Source: Candidatus Gerdarchaeota archaeon (GTDB lineage: Archaea > Asgardarchaeota > Heimdallarchaeia > JABLTI01). From it: a stretch of 5,153 nucleotides of DNA. Every line of letters begins with the position of its first letter. The first letter of the stretch is position 1. The position numbers were made by a program, and so were the translations under genes. Of the stretch, positions 1 through 5,153 are shown piece after piece. The notes under the pieces were generated by a model. That model was not told where the DNA came from. It did not search any database and saw only the letters and a program-made list of their open reading frames with translations. The DNA lies in contig JAEOUJ010000335.1 of the NCBI GenBank assembly GCA_016839405.1, positions 1 to 5,153 on the forward strand. Direction: 5' to 3'.

Positions 1-313
1 TAATCAGATTATAGATTATACAATTATTAGTTATTGTTTTTTGTATTTTTTCTTCTAAACCAGGTCTAAAGCGCAATTCATCATATCTTGAATGATCAAT
101 TAGTGAATCAATTCTAGATTTAATTTGTATTACAAATCTTTTTGCTTCATCAAAAAATTGACTTGATTTTTGTGAATTAATTATTAATTTACGACAATCA
201 ATTAAAAGAAAAGTATTTGCTTCTCTTAGTTTGCGTTCATATTGAGCTAATTTATGTAAATCTTTAGGAGTATCAACCAAGTCTTTTAAAGCAGAGAACT
301 TTTCTTCACTCAT
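1..313 (-). CDS. Hypothetical helical protein, partial (5' end only; runs off left edge)
   Basis: I do not recognise this gene. Read on the minus strand from ATG at 313-311, the frame stays open for 104 codons to the window edge with no stop, so the C-terminus is missing. The protein starts MSEEKFSALKDLVD and is rich in Lys, Glu, Asp, Leu and Ile, with no obvious membrane segment, signal peptide or metal motif. The charge and hydrophobic spacing (for example residues 15-70) suggest long amphipathic helices, possibly a coiled coil. Start choice: ATG 313 is the first in-frame start, and an in-frame TAA lies nine codons upstream. No strong Shine-Dalgarno precedes it. It is divergent from the small membrane protein at 475. 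That the frame is coding is inferred from its uninterrupted length in AT-rich DNA, where stops are frequent, and from plausible amino-acid composition. Confidence 0.65.
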   Translation of the reverse strand, partial: MSEEKFSALKDLVDTPKDLHKLAQYERKLREANTFLLIDCRKLIINSQKSSQFFDEAKRFVIQIKSRIDSLIDHSRYDELRFRPGLEEKIQKTITNNCIIYNLI

Positions 314-345
314 ACTATTAACCCATTGTTGTTTCTGTTACAAAG

Positions 346-383
346 TCACTGAAATAACATTAAAAAGCTATTGAAATCAGTGA
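346..383. repeat. Short inverted repeat in divergent intergenic region
   Basis: TCACTGA at 346-352 is the reverse complement of TCAGTGA at 377-383. The two 7-bp arms are separated by 24 bases that contain the candidate TATA box of the left gene. The right arm also sits in a small palindrome (GAAAT, six bases, ATTTC, at 373-388). This could be an operator for a dimeric regulator between two divergent genes, but the arms are short and chance is a real alternative. Confidence 0.3.
359..369 (-). promoter_or_regulatory. Possible TATA box for the left minus-strand gene
   Basis: Read on the minus strand this is AGCTTTTTAAT, a TATA-like element about 50 nt upstream of the ATG at 313. An archaeal start about 25 nt downstream would give a leader of roughly 25 nt. 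It rests on composition and spacing only, and AT-rich DNA throws up such matches often. Confidence 0.3.
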
Positions 384-420
384 ATTTCGCTAAATGTATT
401 TTAATTATCCTTGTTAATAA

Positions 421-430
421 TTTTTAATAA
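421..430 (+). promoter_or_regulatory. Possible TATA box for the 77-residue membrane protein
   Basis: TTTTTAATAA lies about 45-54 nt upstream of ATG 475. With archaeal spacing, transcription would start near 451, giving a leader of about 24 nt that includes the GGAG ribosome site. If correct, it also rules out translation from ATG 430, which lies upstream of that predicted start. Confidence 0.35.
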
Positions 431-462
431 TGATAATATTTAGTATTTCTGTAATTAATAAT

Positions 463-466
463 GGAG
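463..466 (+). promoter_or_regulatory. Shine-Dalgarno GGAG deciding the start at 475
   Basis: GGAG ends eight bases before ATG 475. No comparable purine-rich site precedes the in-frame ATG at 430, so the shorter reading (77 residues) is preferred over the 92-residue one. Confidence 0.6.
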
Positions 467-474
467 CTGGAATT

Positions 475-708
475 ATGAAAACACTTGGAAATTTAATGAA
501 TAATAAAAATGCAGCAAAAAGCAAAAAGGGTATAATAACAAGTGCTGTTATAGCTATTGTTATTGTTAGTATAGCATCTTTTGTTTTTGGAGGAGGAGGA
601 GGAACTGTTATTGGAATTATTCTTAGTGTTTTGGTTCTAGGAGCTATTGGTGCAGGATTATTCTTTTGGCTTAAAGCAGTGGATGATTTACCAGATGCAA
701 TTGATTGA
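475..708 (+). CDS. Small two-helix membrane protein, function unknown (77 aa)
   Basis: I do not recognise a family. The 77-residue product begins MKTLGNLMNNKNAAKSKKG, a short basic head, followed by two strongly hydrophobic stretches at about residues 20-38 and 44-66. These are joined by five consecutive glycines (39-43), and the protein ends in an acidic tail (DDLPDAID). This reads as a helical hairpin in the cytoplasmic membrane, with both termini probably in the cytosol by the positive-inside rule. The glycines are encoded by five identical GGA codons (589-603), a trinucleotide repeat that could change length by slippage. An in-frame ATG at 430 would add 15 residues, but the GGAG site before 475 and the TATA candidate at 421-430 favour the later start. 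The gene stands alone, with a T-tract about 60 nt after its stop. Confidence 0.7.
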   Translation: MKTLGNLMNNKNAAKSKKGIITSAVIAIVIVSIASFVFGGGGGTVIGIILSVLVLGAIGAGLFFWLKAVDDLPDAID

Positions 709-766
709 AAGTTGGTTATTAAGTTAATTATTATAAACGATTATTAATTATATAGATTATAATTTA

Positions 767-772
767 TTTTTT
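767..772 (+). terminator. Possible U-tract terminator after the 77-aa gene
   Basis: Six consecutive Ts, within a wider T-rich run, lie about 60 nt past the stop at 708. Archaeal RNA polymerase can terminate at U-rich tracts without a hairpin. This is weak evidence in such AT-rich DNA. Confidence 0.25.
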
Positions 773-867
773 CAATCAAATTACTACTTTTATAAGTTTG
801 AAAAAAACATCATTTTATTAAATATATAAAGAAAAATAATTGAAAATGAATATAGCTATAAGTGAAT

Positions 868-878
868 ACCTTTAAATA
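868..878 (+). promoter_or_regulatory. Archaeal TATA box (ACCTTTAAATA) for the small-RNA candidate
   Basis: TTTAAATA at 871-878 is a near-consensus archaeal box A, preceded by ACC. The usual spacing of about 26 nt from its centre predicts a transcription start at 900-901, exactly where the first GC-rich hairpin (GCGTGC) begins. No protein gene starts within 350 bases downstream, so the promoter appears to serve a non-coding transcript, or else a very long leader for the CYTH gene. Confidence 0.5.
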
Positions 879-900
879 AAATGTTAGCATAGTTAATATA

Positions 901-1003
901 GCGTGCATAATGCCATTTGGCACGCCATTTTGAATTATTGACTATTAAGACTATCTCCTGTTTCAACGCGGGACCTTTCTATTGAAAGTGTTCCCGCGTT
1001 TTT
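901..1003 (+). ncRNA. Candidate structured small RNA of about 103 nt, family unknown
   Basis: The stretch stands out as a GC-richer island in very AT-rich DNA and has the parts of an independent transcription unit. A TATA box is placed for a start at about 901, a 5' hairpin follows (GCGTGC 901-906 with GCACGC 920-925), then a mostly single-stranded middle, and a long 3' hairpin ends in a T-tract. I see no long open frame in it; the only short one is ATG 910 to TGA 933 (7 codons). It does not match tRNA, 5S, RNase P or SRP RNA in size or motifs. Box C (RTGATGA) and box D (CTGA) are not clearly present, and no H/ACA layout was recognised. It could instead be a 3' UTR of the upstream gene or a leader attenuator of the CYTH gene 258 bases downstream. 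Confidence 0.45.
965..1003 (+). terminator. Hairpin plus T-tract, intrinsic-terminator-like
   Basis: AACGCGGGA (965-973) pairs perfectly with TCCCGCGTT (992-1000). Inside, CTTTC (975-979) pairs with GAAAG (984-988) around a four-base loop, leaving a small asymmetric bulge. Ts run on from 999 to 1003. The T-tract is on the plus-strand side only, so the element points rightward. It would end the small-RNA candidate or read-through from the gene at 475. Confidence 0.6.
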
Positions 1004-1191
1004 GATTTCGAAGAAATAAAAATTAAAATTATTTTAATGTCACTTTTTTTCTTATTCATTTTTGTGATTGTAAAAAACACTAAAAAAAAGAAATATTTTA
1101 ATTGATATTTCGTTAATTATCTGAAGATATAAATCTTCTAATTTAATTCAAGACTATCCAATACACAAATGAATTTTTCTCAAAAAATTGT

Positions 1192-1204
1192 TTTAATATA
1201 AATA
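1192..1204 (+). promoter_or_regulatory. Possible TATA box for the CYTH gene
   Basis: TTTAATATAAATA lies about 60 nt before ATG 1261. With standard spacing, transcription would start near 1224 and give a leader of about 37 nt carrying the AAGGA site. Confidence 0.4.
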
Positions 1205-1244
1205 ATAAACAAATATTTTTACTGGTTTCTTTGTTATTTTAAAA

Positions 1245-1249
1245 AAGGA
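1245..1249 (+). promoter_or_regulatory. Shine-Dalgarno AAGGA for the CYTH gene
   Basis: AAGGA ends 11 bases before ATG 1261, slightly long spacing but the only purine-rich site there. It supports the start, as does the CYTH signature beginning at residue 3. Confidence 0.5.
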
Positions 1250-1260
1250 TTGATTTAATA

Positions 1261-1779
1261 ATGTTTGATATAGAAATAAAAGCATATTATGAAAATCATG
1301 ATAAGGTTAGGCAATTTTTAAAAAATAAAAATGCAAAATTCCATGGAGTAGACAATCAAATTGATATTTACTTTTATGTTAAAAATGGGCGTCTAAAATT
1401 GCGAAAAGGAAAAATAGAATCTGCTTTAGTATTTTACAAACGTGCAAATAAAAAAGGAATTAAAATTAGCGAATATCACTTATATCATTCAAAGAATATA
1501 GAAAAACTAGAATCAATATTAACTGACTCTTTGGGCATATTAATTGAAGTAAAGAAAAAACGGGAAATGTATTTTATCAATAATATTAAATTTAACCTTG
1601 ATGTAGTTGAAGGTCTAGGAAAATTTATAGAAATTGAAGCTATAACAGACAATGAATCAGATTTTACCAAATTACATGAAATTGTAAGCTCTTATATTGA
1701 AATTTTAGAAATAAATGAATCCGATTTACAAAGTCTTTCCTATAGTGATCTCTTATTAAAGAAAAGAAAAACCAATTAG
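1261..1779 (+). CDS. CYTH-domain protein, class IV adenylate cyclase (CyaB)-like
   Basis: A complete 172-residue protein spanning one CYTH (triphosphate tunnel) domain, the usual length for stand-alone members. The N-terminal signature is D-I-E-I-K (residues 3-7), the family's ExExK with Asp replacing the first Glu. Further family-like elements follow in order: QIDIYF (33-38), basic strand RLKLR (44-48), FYKR (58-61), EVKKKREMYF (96-105), LDVVEGLGKFIEIE (113-126), and the terminal SYSDLL (160-165). Charged residues from opposing strands (E5, K7, K46, R48, K60, R61, K98-R101, D114, E124, E126) would line the tunnel that binds a triphosphate and divalent metals. Family members are adenylate cyclases, thiamine triphosphatases or inorganic triphosphatases. 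Spacing and C-terminus resemble class IV cyclases, but archaeal homologues are mostly uncharacterised, so substrate is uncertain. It is probably soluble and cytosolic, and monocistronic: the next gene starts 217 bases on with its own promoter. Confidence 0.88.
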   Translation: MFDIEIKAYYENHDKVRQFLKNKNAKFHGVDNQIDIYFYVKNGRLKLRKGKIESALVFYKRANKKGIKISEYHLYHSKNIEKLESILTDSLGILIEVKKKREMYFINNIKFNLDVVEGLGKFIEIEAITDNESDFTKLHEIVSSYIEILEINESDLQSLSYSDLLLKKRKTN

Positions 1780-1959
1780 AATTTTAAATTCCATTTAAAA
1801 AATGATTTTTAATAATTGAATAGCTAAAGAATTATTAATATAACAAAATAATTATTAAAATAAATTCTTTATTTTAGTTTACCAAAGCTAAATATCAAGG
1901 TAAGTATTTTATTAAATATGAAAACCTAGCTCTCTTTGATTCATTTGAAATAAAAAAGC

Positions 1960-1968
1960 TATATAAAA
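1960..1968 (+). promoter_or_regulatory. TATA box (TATATAAAA) before the TauE/SafE gene
   Basis: TATATAAAA is a strong archaeal TATA match. Its centre predicts a transcription start near 1989-1990, only about 7 nt before GTG 1997 and about 19 nt before ATG 2009. A transcript starting there would lose most of the AGAGGA ribosome site, so this promoter fits the ATG start better, or else an upstream box (TTAAATAT near 1912-1919) is the real one. Confidence 0.45.
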
Positions 1969-1983
1969 TGAAAGCATATGTTA

Positions 1984-1989
1984 AGAGGA
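1984..1989 (+). promoter_or_regulatory. Shine-Dalgarno AGAGGA favouring the GTG start at 1997
   Basis: AGAGGA ends seven bases before GTG 1997, close to ideal spacing. It lies 19 bases from the alternative ATG at 2009, which is too far. This is the reason for choosing the GTG. Confidence 0.5.
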
Positions 1990-1996
1990 ACTTATT

Positions 1997-2977
1997 GTGG
2001 AAATAATTATGGAATTTAGTTGGTTGATAATTTTAATCATTTTTTTAGCATTTATTTGTGAATTTGCAGATTCATCATTGGGCATGGGTTATGGAACTAC
2101 ACTCACTCCTGTTTTATTATTACTTGGTTATGAATCAGCTCAAATTGTTCCAGCAGTATTAATCTCTGAATGTGTAACAGGCATTGTCTCAGCAATTTTT
2201 CACGTTGTTTTTAAGAATATGAGTCTTGGGTATAATAAAAAACCATTAAAGGAAAGATTAGATGTTGCAGCAAAACCATTAACACCTAAACCAAGCACTG
2301 ATTTACAATATGGTGGAGGAACTAGTGGAAATATAAAACCAGAAAAAATTTCATTAAAAGAAAGAATAAAGGAGTTAACCATTGACACAAAAGTAGTAAT
2401 CATATTAACTTTATTTGGAATTATTGGAACTTTAATTGCATCAATTACTTCAGCAGTTTATGGTTATAATGATATGTTCAAATTTATTGTTAAATTATAC
2501 ATTGGTATTATGGTAATTGCTATGGGAATTCTAATATTGGCTTTACGAAATAAGCAAATTAAATTCTCTTTCAAAAGAATTATTTCTTTAGGTGCAATTG
2601 CAGGTTTTAATAAAGGTATATCAGGTGGTGGATATGGTCCTTTAACAGTTTCAGGGCAAATCCTATCTGGTAGAGAAGGAAAAAATGCTATAGCTTCAAC
2701 ATCACTTTCAGAGGGTATTATTTGTTTTGTTGGAGCATCAGCTTTTATTATTACCAACGTAATTAGAAGTAGTTTAGATTCTGGACCGATAACTGTAGGT
2801 GAACTTGGACTAGCTCCATTTTTGATATTAGGAGCTGTATTATCCGCACCACTTGCAGCATTTACTACTAAAGCAGTGGATAATAAATGGTTAAAGCTGC
2901 TGGTAGGTATCGTTACTATTATTTTAGGTTCATTTACATTAATTAGAACAATACTTGGTTATTTAGGCATATGGTAA
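1997..2977 (+). CDS. TauE/SafE-family (DUF81) membrane permease
   Basis: A 326-residue polytopic membrane protein of the sulfite exporter TauE/SafE family, whose members move sulfite, sulfoacetate or other organosulfur and small anionic compounds across the cytoplasmic membrane. About eight or nine hydrophobic segments are visible. The family's internal duplication shows as two glycine-rich motifs, SSLGMGYGTTLTP (26-38) and KGISGGGYGPLTV (206-218), each followed by a polar/hydrophobic segment with a conserved Glu (ISEC at 57-60, SLSEG at 236-240). Between the first helices and the segment at 131 lies a hydrophilic loop of about 57 residues (74-130), charged and with a Gly-rich patch (GGGTSG), longer than typical linkers. 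Start: GTG with AGAGGA at good spacing; ATG at codon 5 is the alternative and costs only four residues. The substrate cannot be read from sequence, and no sulfur-metabolism gene is adjacent. It is probably transcribed alone. Confidence 0.88.
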   Translation: MEIIMEFSWLIILIIFLAFICEFADSSLGMGYGTTLTPVLLLLGYESAQIVPAVLISECVTGIVSAIFHVVFKNMSLGYNKKPLKERLDVAAKPLTPKPSTDLQYGGGTSGNIKPEKISLKERIKELTIDTKVVIILTLFGIIGTLIASITSAVYGYNDMFKFIVKLYIGIMVIAMGILILALRNKQIKFSFKRIISLGAIAGFNKGISGGGYGPLTVSGQILSGREGKNAIASTSLSEGIICFVGASAFIITNVIRSSLDSGPITVGELGLAPFLILGAVLSAPLAAFTTKAVDNKWLKLLVGIVTIILGSFTLIRTILGYLGIW

Positions 2978-2980
2978 CAA

Positions 2981-3022
2981 ATAAAAGAAAAGTGCTATCC
3001 CCCCAATTAAAGGGGGGATAGC
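2981..3022 (-). terminator. Hairpin plus U-rich tail ending the minus-strand RING-type gene
   Basis: GCTATCCCCCC (2994-3004) and GGGGGGATAGC (3012-3022) form a perfect 11-bp stem with a seven-base AT loop. It lies 21 bases past the stop of the minus-strand gene. On the minus strand the stem is followed by a T-rich run (ACTTTTCTTTTATTTG). On the plus strand no T-tract follows directly, so termination from the right is better supported, although the stem could also slow transcription from the TauE/SafE gene. Confidence 0.65.
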
Positions 3023-3043
3023 TAACCGACTCCCCAACATAAG

Positions 3044-5153
3044 TTAGTCCTTTTCCTGTGCGACGGATAATTTGTCAACTTTGAGTTTCTGTTGACAAAC
3101 AGGGCAAGTCCCCTTCACTTTAACCCATTCCAACAAATGTTCTTTATGAGCAATATTTTGACAATGATAACATTCAAGATAGTCTGAACCAAAAGAGATT
3201 GGTAATTTACAAACTGAACATTGAATTGTATCCATTCCACAGTTTGAGCAAGGCTCATTAACATTTGTTCTTTCCTCTCCGCATGAGAAACAACTGATTT
3301 TCCTCTTAGAAATTCTATCTTTGATTTCTTCATGATTTATAGGCACTGAAAATTCGGTTGGTGTAACACCTAGACTAATCAAACTTGTTATCTCAGTTAC
3401 AATTCTATTCTTTTCTTCTGTAGGAGCACTTTGATAAGCTAACTGCAAATAATTTAGTGAAGATTGTAGCTCCTCTATGTCTCTTAATGCTAAACCTAGT
3501 TGTTCTGCTACAAGATGTAGTGGAATATCAAGCACAATATTGAAAATTGCTTTTCTCAAATCTTTCATATCTCTCAAATTTTCAAATTCTTTTTGAAGTA
3601 AAGTAGCTTTTTCAGAACCTTTTTTATCGAAAATTGCTTTTACGAAATTTCTTAGAGGTGATAGCATCCAATCTAATATGTCATTTTGTTCATGCGTACC
3701 AATTTCCTCAAGAGTCTTTTGAGCTTCCTCCCAATATTTCAAACCCTCTCTAAATTTGCTTAATTTTAAGGCATTTTGTCCCTTATGTAACAATTCTTGT
3801 ACTTTAAACTTCTTAAAAGTAAATAAGTACGTTGAATTATAGTCTTTGGCTATTTTAATTCCTGCTTTCCAATTCTTAGTGCGTATATATTCTGTAATTA
3901 GATCATTTATAGCTCGATTTTTATTTAATTTAATATCTATGGTTATTGGTTTTTCTTCTGTATAATATTCATTATAACTTTGTTTTGTTTTTCTATATAT
4001 TGTTTCCATGAAAACTATGAAACCAATTAAAGTAAGTGCAAAAATCACACTTAATATGATAATAAGATCCATTTGTATGATTTTGAATTGATTAGTAACA
4101 ATTATTGGCAATGTTTGAATGAAAGTACCTATATTTGTTTTAATTGTAATTTCCAAAATATCTTCATATGTTGTATGAGGTTCTATTCCAGAAAATGAAA
4201 TCAAAACAGGATAGGTAAATTTTTCTTCTGGATTAATTAAATCTTGAAAATCCGAAGAATACGATACGCTTGCTAAAGTTAGCGATATATTGGCATCTAA
4301 ATAAATTGAAAGATTATTAGTCAATTCTATATCAAAGTATACACTCTTTGATTCGTCACTTCTTATTATAATAATAGAACTTGGAGTGGTTGTACTAATT
4401 TTCGGTGTATAATCAATTCCAATTGTTTTTATTATTTCATGAATTATAACCTCATTTGATTTCATTTTAATTGACAATTCATTTGCAATTGCAGTTGAAC
4501 TTAATTCTGGTATATCAAATGAAATTTCAGATGGAAAGGAGTTTATTACTTGTAATGAATCATCTATTTGCTGAATTTTAATTTCAGCTGATATATCATT
4601 TCTGTTCTTTAATTCACCAGTTAAAGTAGTTGTTTCTACAGTTAAATTATTTGATTTACCTTCAAGTAATATCTCACCATATCCTTTCACTATAAAAGGT
4701 ATATAATTTAATGAATAAAATGTTAAAGCATTCTGTGATATTGGATTTTTACCAAGAAAAATACCAAATTGATATCCTTCAATTGAAAGAATAGTACTAG
4801 CTTTTATTCTACGTAAATTTGCTAATCCTGAATCAATTTCTTGGAAACCTGAATTGGTAATAACATTATAATCACTAACAGATTCAGCTAATAAATCATA
4901 AGTGGTCATTATGATTTCATCATCACCATCAAGATCAATATCAACAGATAAGCCATCTAGTGACCAAAGAGGAGTTTTATCAATAAGATATTCATCAGTA
5001 ATTGTTGATATACCATCTTCAATTGCAAGTTTCAAACAGAATGGATAATTATCTAAACCATTTTCAATAAAAGTACCAAATAAAGCAATATCTTGTTTAT
5101 TGGTGTTAATGGTGTTAATGATTTCCGAATTATAAGCTCTAAAAATATGTGTA
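3044..5153 (-). CDS. Single-span membrane protein with propeller-like ectodomain and cytosolic TPR-like, zinc-ribbon and RING/PHD-type tail (5' partial)
   Basis: The frame is open from the right edge to TAA at 3046-3044, giving 702 visible residues (numbered from the edge). The N-terminus is missing. A TTG at 5035 could be mistaken for a start, but coding continues upstream. Residues 16-21 (DIALFG) and 70-80 (Ca-loop VDIDLDGDDEI) look like FG-GAP/VCBS propeller blades. Beta-rich, Ig/CARDB-like sequence follows to about 354. One membrane helix lies at about 358-382, with basic IYRKTK after it, so the C-terminus is cytosolic. Residues 416-594 are helical, with a TPR-like repeat at about 459-485. 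Then come a zinc ribbon (C621, C624, C635, C638) and a cross-brace finger, C645-x2-C648-x12-C661-x2-C664-x4-H669-x2-H672-x10-C683-x2-C686, ending CPVC. The finger resembles RING/PHD (Prok-RING-like) domains. A sensor or receptor that recruits partners, perhaps a ubiquitin ligase, is inference; no E1, E2 or ubiquitin gene is in view. Confidence 0.8.
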   Translation of the reverse strand, partial: THIFRAYNSEIINTINTNKQDIALFGTFIENGLDNYPFCLKLAIEDGISTITDEYLIDKTPLWSLDGLSVDIDLDGDDEIIMTTYDLLAESVSDYNVITNSGFQEIDSGLANLRRIKASTILSIEGYQFGIFLGKNPISQNALTFYSLNYIPFIVKGYGEILLEGKSNNLTVETTTLTGELKNRNDISAEIKIQQIDDSLQVINSFPSEISFDIPELSSTAIANELSIKMKSNEVIIHEIIKTIGIDYTPKISTTTPSSIIIIRSDESKSVYFDIELTNNLSIYLDANISLTLASVSYSSDFQDLINPEEKFTYPVLISFSGIEPHTTYEDILEITIKTNIGTFIQTLPIIVTNQFKIIQMDLIIILSVIFALTLIGFIVFMETIYRKTKQSYNEYYTEEKPITIDIKLNKNRAINDLITEYIRTKNWKAGIKIAKDYNSTYLFTFKKFKVQELLHKGQNALKLSKFREGLKYWEEAQKTLEEIGTHEQNDILDWMLSPLRNFVKAIFDKKGSEKATLLQKEFENLRDMKDLRKAIFNIVLDIPLHLVAEQLGLALRDIEELQSSLNYLQLAYQSAPTEEKNRIVTEITSLISLGVTPTEFSVPINHEEIKDRISKRKISCFSCGEERTNVNEPCSNCGMDTIQCSVCKLPISFGSDYLECYHCQNIAHKEHLLEWVKVKGTCPVCQQKLKVDKLSVAQEKD

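Follow-up and report, generated by a model that had tools for sequence, protein, structure and literature searches.

Does an archaeal gene that looks like a membrane receptor carry an output domain for ubiquitin signalling? The question is raised by the gene at the end of the window, i.e. the whole stretch of 5,153 nucleotides from Candidatus Gerdarchaeota archaeon analysed here (assembly GCA_016839405.1, contig JAEOUJ010000335.1, positions 1 to 5,153). A first reading made from the letters alone (the sequence-only reading) had described a receptor-like membrane protein joining an exported propeller-like domain to a cytosolic RING/PHD-type finger. On balance we favour the view that this gene is the RING-bearing half of a Heimdallarchaeota two-gene cell-surface receptor acting via E2~ubiquitin (E2, ubiquitin-conjugating enzyme). 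The vWA protein encoded directly upstream and the propeller-RING protein would act together, and their ectodomains would bind a surface ligand or a neighbouring cell. The RING would recruit E2~ubiquitin of the Asgard ubiquitin/E1/E2 system (E1, activating enzyme), and binding would lead to ubiquitination of the receptor, the partner or the bound protein, as in eukaryotic transmembrane RING receptors. What the data support is a receptor-like membrane protein with an output domain from the Asgard stock of ubiquitin RINGs; we infer that this protein has ligase activity and is controlled by binding outside the cell.

Domain order and topology of the window protein

The match set for the last 423 residues of the window protein contained 24 proteins, and 22 were counted as orthologs; P0023 and P0024 were left out, as only the zinc region is common to them and the window protein. 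Twenty orthologs are 994-1029 aa long (the shorter ones are P0015, 585 aa, and P0016, 898 aa), so that about 300 N-terminal residues are expected beyond the window. Those source metagenome-assembled genomes that carry a name are from Asgard group archaeon, Heimdallarchaeota, Thorarchaeota and one Bathyarchaeia; going by these names the host is an Asgard archaeon, which confirms the archaeal genome suspected at first. The full-length RING protein is present in 8 of 227 Asgard genomes, with a contig-edge fragment in G064.

The alignment and the structure models show a protein with a predicted exported propeller and beta-sandwich ectodomain (only the C-terminal part of the propeller lies in the window), one membrane span, cytosolic helices, a zinc ribbon and a C4H2C2 RING. 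In the AlphaFold2 model of ortholog P0001 (mean pLDDT, the per-residue confidence, 84.6; pTM, the global fold score, 0.58), 28 strands were observed across residues 46-450 and more up to residue 653, followed by a helix at 660-699 containing the transmembrane (TM) segment, helices at 708-892 and then the zinc region. Full-length orthologs start with a basic-hydrophobic signal or anchor segment. N-glycosylation sequons number 9-16 in the ectodomain of 21 of the 23 rows (those whose ectodomain is whole or nearly so), and the cytosolic part of each of the 23 has 0-2; the ectodomain in the window has 3 against a shuffle mean of 4.9 and is too partial to inform topology. The order of ectodomain, TM, helices, zinc ribbon and finger was thus borne out by the alignment, the model and the sequon asymmetry, and the propeller/beta character of the ectodomain by the model. 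Two finer assignments stood in part. The region called TPR-like is helical in the model, but its TPR identity is weak (of seven orthologs scanned, one matched TPR_12, at E 0.035); the Ca-loop propeller was modelled as a propeller and has the DIDLDGDDEI loop, but its only family match is sub-threshold (FG-GAP_3, E 0.051, in one of the same seven). No PA domain match was listed in the Pfam scans.

When mean pairwise identities were compared, the RING was the most conserved of all parts (75 %), against 32 % for the propeller and 24.5 % for the sandwich region, as expected for a variable sensor with a constant output. Since the window holds the 3' part of the gene only, it could be argued that RING and ectodomain lie on the same membrane side, or that the gene is mis-assembled. 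This is very improbable, since the full architecture recurs in eight genome loci and in 20 orthologs from the database (994-1029 aa), and in view of the sequon asymmetry and the hydrophobic segments.

A vWA gene upstream of the RING gene

Eight ortholog loci were obtained together with their upstream flank (L001-L008). In all of them the gene immediately before the ortholog, on the same strand and at a gap of 1-41 bp, belongs to one vWA family. This partner is new here and lies beyond the window. It is a single-span membrane protein consisting of a signal segment, a vWA domain, a beta-rich region, a C-terminal TM helix and a very short, basic cytosolic tail. The VWA match of the one partner scanned was above the cut-off (E 1.6e-8), and the D-x-SGS of the metal ion-dependent adhesion site (MIDAS) is kept in 6/6 complete copies aligned, with a variable second MIDAS loop; the partner therefore has the vWA domain with DxSxS MIDAS of integrin-beta-like chains. 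Two copies are incomplete (L004 is in two pieces and L005 ends at the contig edge). PSI/EGF cysteine-rich repeats were not seen: the six aligned copies contain few cysteines (by eye), and VWA was the only match above the cut-off in the one scanned. For 10 of the 22 database orthologs the contig is equally long as the contig of a vWA relative, one of them being that of L003. Very probably, the window protein and the vWA protein form a paired two-gene unit.

Relatives of the vWA protein over most of its length were found in the eight ortholog-bearing genomes and seven more (G051-G053, G055-G058). Mid-range vWA matches occur in 20 genomes, all of which were opened (L150-L169); 16 had a distant vWA gene and directly after it (gap -29 to 7 bp) a different RING gene of 426-441 aa; both expected hydrophobic segments were above threshold in 9 of these RING proteins and one of the two in the other 7. 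The exceptions are L156, L159 (219-aa frame), L161 and L165.

vWA and propeller ectodomains are typical of adhesion proteins, and the window protein might serve in adhesion at the cell surface, with its cytosolic zinc module binding a non-ubiquitin target (lipid, RNA or another protein). At L165 (677-2131, minus strand) the gene after the vWA gene encodes a membrane protein that has a helix-turn-helix domain instead, which makes a surface unit of the same kind with a different output and fits such a role. We regard this non-ubiquitin role as improbable, however, due to the occurrence of the same RING subtype beside E2 genes and its co-occurrence with E2, described below.

The zinc ribbon-RING module

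All 12 zinc ligands of ribbon and RING are invariant across 21 aligned sequences. Eight Cys/His ligands stand in cross-brace spacing, and the cross-brace was present when the module was modelled alone (mean pLDDT 84; block means 90-95 over residues 31-80, the RING part), which confirms the eight-ligand finger first read from the letters. A profile built from 38 modules was compared with PDB sequences and matched RNF126 (2.0e-8), Arkadia (4.6e-8) and EL5 (5.5e-8); the value for RNF4 (5.2e-10) comes from a tandem construct, each of its two RINGs giving ~2e-4. Prok-RING_1 (PF14446) was matched by 25 of the 38 related modules at E<0.01, and the window module gave no match to it at E 0.01.

The E2-contact residues V, W and P are each kept in all 22 complete-RING sequences (the window and 21 orthologs), which therefore all have the hydrophobic C1+2 residue and the Trp of RING-type E3 ubiquitin ligases. 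To judge from these residues, E2 docking looks conserved. According to excerpts of PMC5654768, the C1+2 Ile, the Trp and the linchpin Arg of the Caldiarchaeum RING protein each mattered for activity.

Ubiquitin genes in related genomes

The first genome set comprised 12 genomes with the full-length protein or related modules and 14 controls. E2 was found in 12/12 related genomes and 0/14 controls, and ubiquitin in 11/12 and 0/14. ThiF-type genes were found in 12/12 and also in 12/14 controls and are therefore not specific. The eight genomes with the full-length protein have E2 (8/8), ubiquitin (7/8, all except G002) and ThiF-type genes (8/8), so the context of an E3 ligase, i.e. ubiquitin, E1 and E2 in the genome, is present where the orthologs occur. 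The sequence-only reading had named three adverse outcomes (a finger without cross-brace, an ectodomain without beta fold, a genome without ubiquitin-type genes), and none of them was observed.

What is known of ubiquitin in archaea comes mainly from a compact operon that has a single small RING (PMC5654768, in part). Such an arrangement was seen at the Helarchaeal locus L071, where a 103-aa RING is followed by ubiquitin, E2 and E1, all on the same strand. A further 23 Asgard genomes, chosen in part for their short RING open reading frames (ORFs), were opened. At least 14 have a RING no more than 1 kb from an E2 gene (11 with both genes on one strand), and at least 16 have one no more than 3 kb away. 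In L094 and L100, examined ORF by ORF, the RING is followed first by a ubiquitin-like ORF whose last two residues are Gly-Gly (by eye) and next by E2. These small RINGs are encoded by frames of 83-132 aa (one cut at 60) and have no ribbon. The C4H2C2 spacing of the window RING was found in 16/16 small-RING loci opened (L071 and 15 others); L090 ends before the pattern. Near another ubiquitin/E1/E2 cluster, a 1103-aa exported-looking protein (L072:98-3406, plus strand) contains a stretch that weakly resembles a RING (E 0.0025; 7e-4 at L029, a shorter locus).

The module profile gave 5-28 matches per genome across 12 Asgard genomes, a few weak ones being zinc ribbons only. Of the 227 Asgard genomes, 168 have E2 and 166 the module (E<=1e-6): both are present in 163, E2 only in 5, the module only in 3 and neither in 56. 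Presence was thus concordant in 219/227 (Fisher p 2e-43, uncorrected for kinship); the counts were read from the listed genomes, with unlisted negatives inferred from the numbering.

Ligase or structural module

Several observations weigh against the favoured reading of a two-gene receptor with a ubiquitin RING. The linchpin position after the last ligand, Lys or Arg in RING-type E3 ligases, is Gln in the window and in 18 of the 22 sequences in all, with Lys in the other 4. Arg was found in 0/37 wider modules (37 of 38 were readable; Q 13, K 12, L 8, M 3, N 1). Among 23 E1/E2/ubiquitin loci of the first genome set, a clear RING was seen at L071 only, and no RING was found at those of G003, G005, G007 and G008, which own the ortholog. 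Three of the 14 closest RING-E2 pairs (G069, G081, G082) are on opposite strands. In a third vWA group, only 4/9 loci have a same-strand partner (L148, L149, L171, and L144, cut by the contig end), and the zinc region of these partners gave no match to the module profile; at L148 the partner has an exported WD40 propeller, a TM and zinc motifs on the cytosolic side. Lastly, the best whole-length structural match of the module is the IFT-A subunit WDR19, which is not a ligase.

The module resembles the RINGs of GATOR2 and IFT-A no less than those of ligases, and because it matches their C-terminal modules, a structural, non-catalytic role is the principal alternative. The zinc ribbon-RING would then be a dimerisation or docking module as in GATOR2/SEA, where the RINGs have a structural role (PMC9646525, in part), and in related complexes, and the protein a receptor or scaffold that assembles cytosolic complexes. 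We consider this possible but rather unlikely: the E2-contact residues are fully kept, the same RING subtype adjoins E2 genes and co-occurs strongly with E2, and even the WDR24 RING has been suggested to bind UBE2D3 (PMC10938194, in part, citing Jiang 2023).

The earlier ligase reading is thus strengthened by the residues, the subtype and the co-occurrence, and weakened by the linchpin and by the likeness to GATOR2/IFT-A. With Gln in 18/22 sequences, ligase activity is not assured, and full activity in the family of the window protein is uncertain; in second-clade RINGs the linchpin is Lys in 16/17. Since the linchpin feature was tested and is absent, we do not file the window protein as an E3 ligase. 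Most likely, it nevertheless works like one.

Features of the window and related proteins

Table 1 Predicted features of the window gene and its neighbours (window positions)
Feature	Position	Strand	Remark
TM-RING receptor-like gene, 3' two-thirds, 702 aa	3044..5152	-	open at window edge
C-terminal part of exported beta-propeller, residues 1-150, DIDLDGDDEI Ca-type loop	4703..5152	-	P0001 model, alignment
Beta-sandwich ectodomain region, residues 155-355	4088..4690	-	P0001 model
Single transmembrane helix, residues 360-388, basic cytosolic flank	3989..4075	-	P0001 model, sequon counts, orthologs
Cytosolic helical (solenoid-like) domain	3365..3937	-	P0001 model
Zinc ribbon, C621-x2-C624 / C635-x2-C638	3233..3301	-	alignment, module model
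C4H2C2 RING finger, ligands C645, C648, C661, C664, H669, H672, C683, C686	3083..3226	-	alignment, module model
RING functional positions: E2-contact V647, W676, P684; linchpin position Q687	within 3083..3226	-	
ESCRT-II Vps22/SNF8-like gene, N-terminal part	2..313	-	family profile vs SNF8 1.4e-9; 55% identity to the copy of L001; near the RING gene in 5/8 loci
CYTH-domain gene	1261..1779	+	family in 6/8 ortholog loci
TauE/SafE-type transporter gene	1997..2977	+	

Many Asgard matches to the module sit on membrane proteins with varied ectodomains. When ORFs were examined for exactly two hydrophobic segments separated by 100 residues or more, with the leading one close to the N-terminus and the RING placed beyond the other, this signal-ectodomain-TM-RING order was found in 4 of 22 ORFs of G007 (28 matches; L007, the window ortholog, L109, L111 and L120) and in 7 of 25 ORFs of G071 (36 matches; L110, L128, L129, L133, two in L135, and L136). 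Their ectodomains include LVIVD/TSP3 repeats (L120), and CARDB and Ig-like matches below the cut-off.

Other settings of the module were also observed. A frame of 3545 residues (L108:2-10636, minus strand) has a long exported-looking region, a hydrophobic segment at ~3194 and the zinc ribbon-RING near its end. At L017:9332-10870 and L018:2233-3702 a signal peptidase I-like part (by eye) is combined with the module and a further hydrophobic region. Proteins of ~695 aa (L105, L106 and L107) have repeated winged-helix-like stretches (by eye) and the module at the end, and frames of that size recur among the module matches in the 227-genome survey. L142 has two adjacent ORFs, each with a hydrophobic N-terminus and two modules.

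Significance

Asgard archaea are relatives of the ancestors of complex cells. The present data hint that cell-surface receptors coupled to ubiquitin may be older than eukaryotes. Provided that the RING is active, ubiquitination under receptor control, which is a central mode of signalling in eukaryotes, would have arisen earlier than they did, and both its first substrates and its connection to Asgard ESCRT (endosomal sorting) would become testable. The recurrent two-gene unit, in which an exported vWA protein is joined with a membrane RING, goes beyond the compact one-RING operon. Through the match to GATOR2/IFT-A modules, one part of these coat-like complexes gains a concrete relative in archaea.

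Comparison with known systems

No description of a propeller-TM-RING protein was found in the open-access literature searched. The closest archaeal likeness is to srfp, the small RING protein of the Caldiarchaeum ubiquitin operon (Hennell James 2017, PMC5654768), whose RING is reported to have an additional cysteine near C3/H4; the key hydrophobic residue and the Trp are common to it and the window RING. The Asgard small RINGs beside E2 share the C4H2C2 spacing of the window RING. Unlike these operon RINGs, the window protein belongs to a family of ~1000-aa membrane proteins with a zinc ribbon and a Gln linchpin, which was not seen beside E1/E2/ubiquitin genes.

Among eukaryotic proteins, the PA-TM-RING protein RNF13 and ZNRF3 have the same layout of signal segment, ectodomain, one TM and cytosolic RING, and both were matched by the module profile (ZNRF3 4e-6, RNF13 4.5e-6). 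In contrast to PA-TM-RING proteins, a propeller and sandwiches replace the PA domain, a helical domain and a zinc ribbon precede the RING, and there is a separate vWA partner.

The GATOR2/SEA subunits WDR24, WDR59 and MIOS and the IFT-A subunit WDR19 match the window module in sequence, fold and ligand spacing, including the pattern of a zinc ribbon and a C-x2-C-x4-H-x2-H-x3-W RING, and the GATOR2/SEA subunits share the order of propeller, solenoid and RING. They are cytosolic and coat-like, whereas in the window protein the membrane separates the propeller from the helices. A coat-like subunit of this type, with propeller and solenoid in one compartment, was rejected due to the intervening TM and the sequon asymmetry. 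A soluble protein of GATOR2-like order does occur in Heimdall archaea (L115:187-1755, minus strand), with 523 aa, a WD40 propeller and a C-terminal zinc ribbon-RING.

As for integrins, the top structural matches of the whole model are integrin alpha chains, with other 7-blade propellers scoring almost as high, and no integrin alpha sequence match was above the cut-off in the seven orthologs scanned. Integrin beta contains PSI/EGF cysteine-rich repeats, unlike the vWA partner chain, and to our knowledge a RING tail is not an integrin feature. What the window family has in common with integrins is a chain of propeller, beta-sandwich and TM whose gene adjoins that of a membrane chain with vWA/MIDAS. 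We tentatively suggest, as a doubtful extension, that Asgard archaea have paired vWA and propeller-type surface receptors, integrin-head-like outside and signalling by RING-tail ubiquitination inside, whose tail comes from the stock behind eukaryotic membrane RING ligases and the GATOR2/IFT-A modules.
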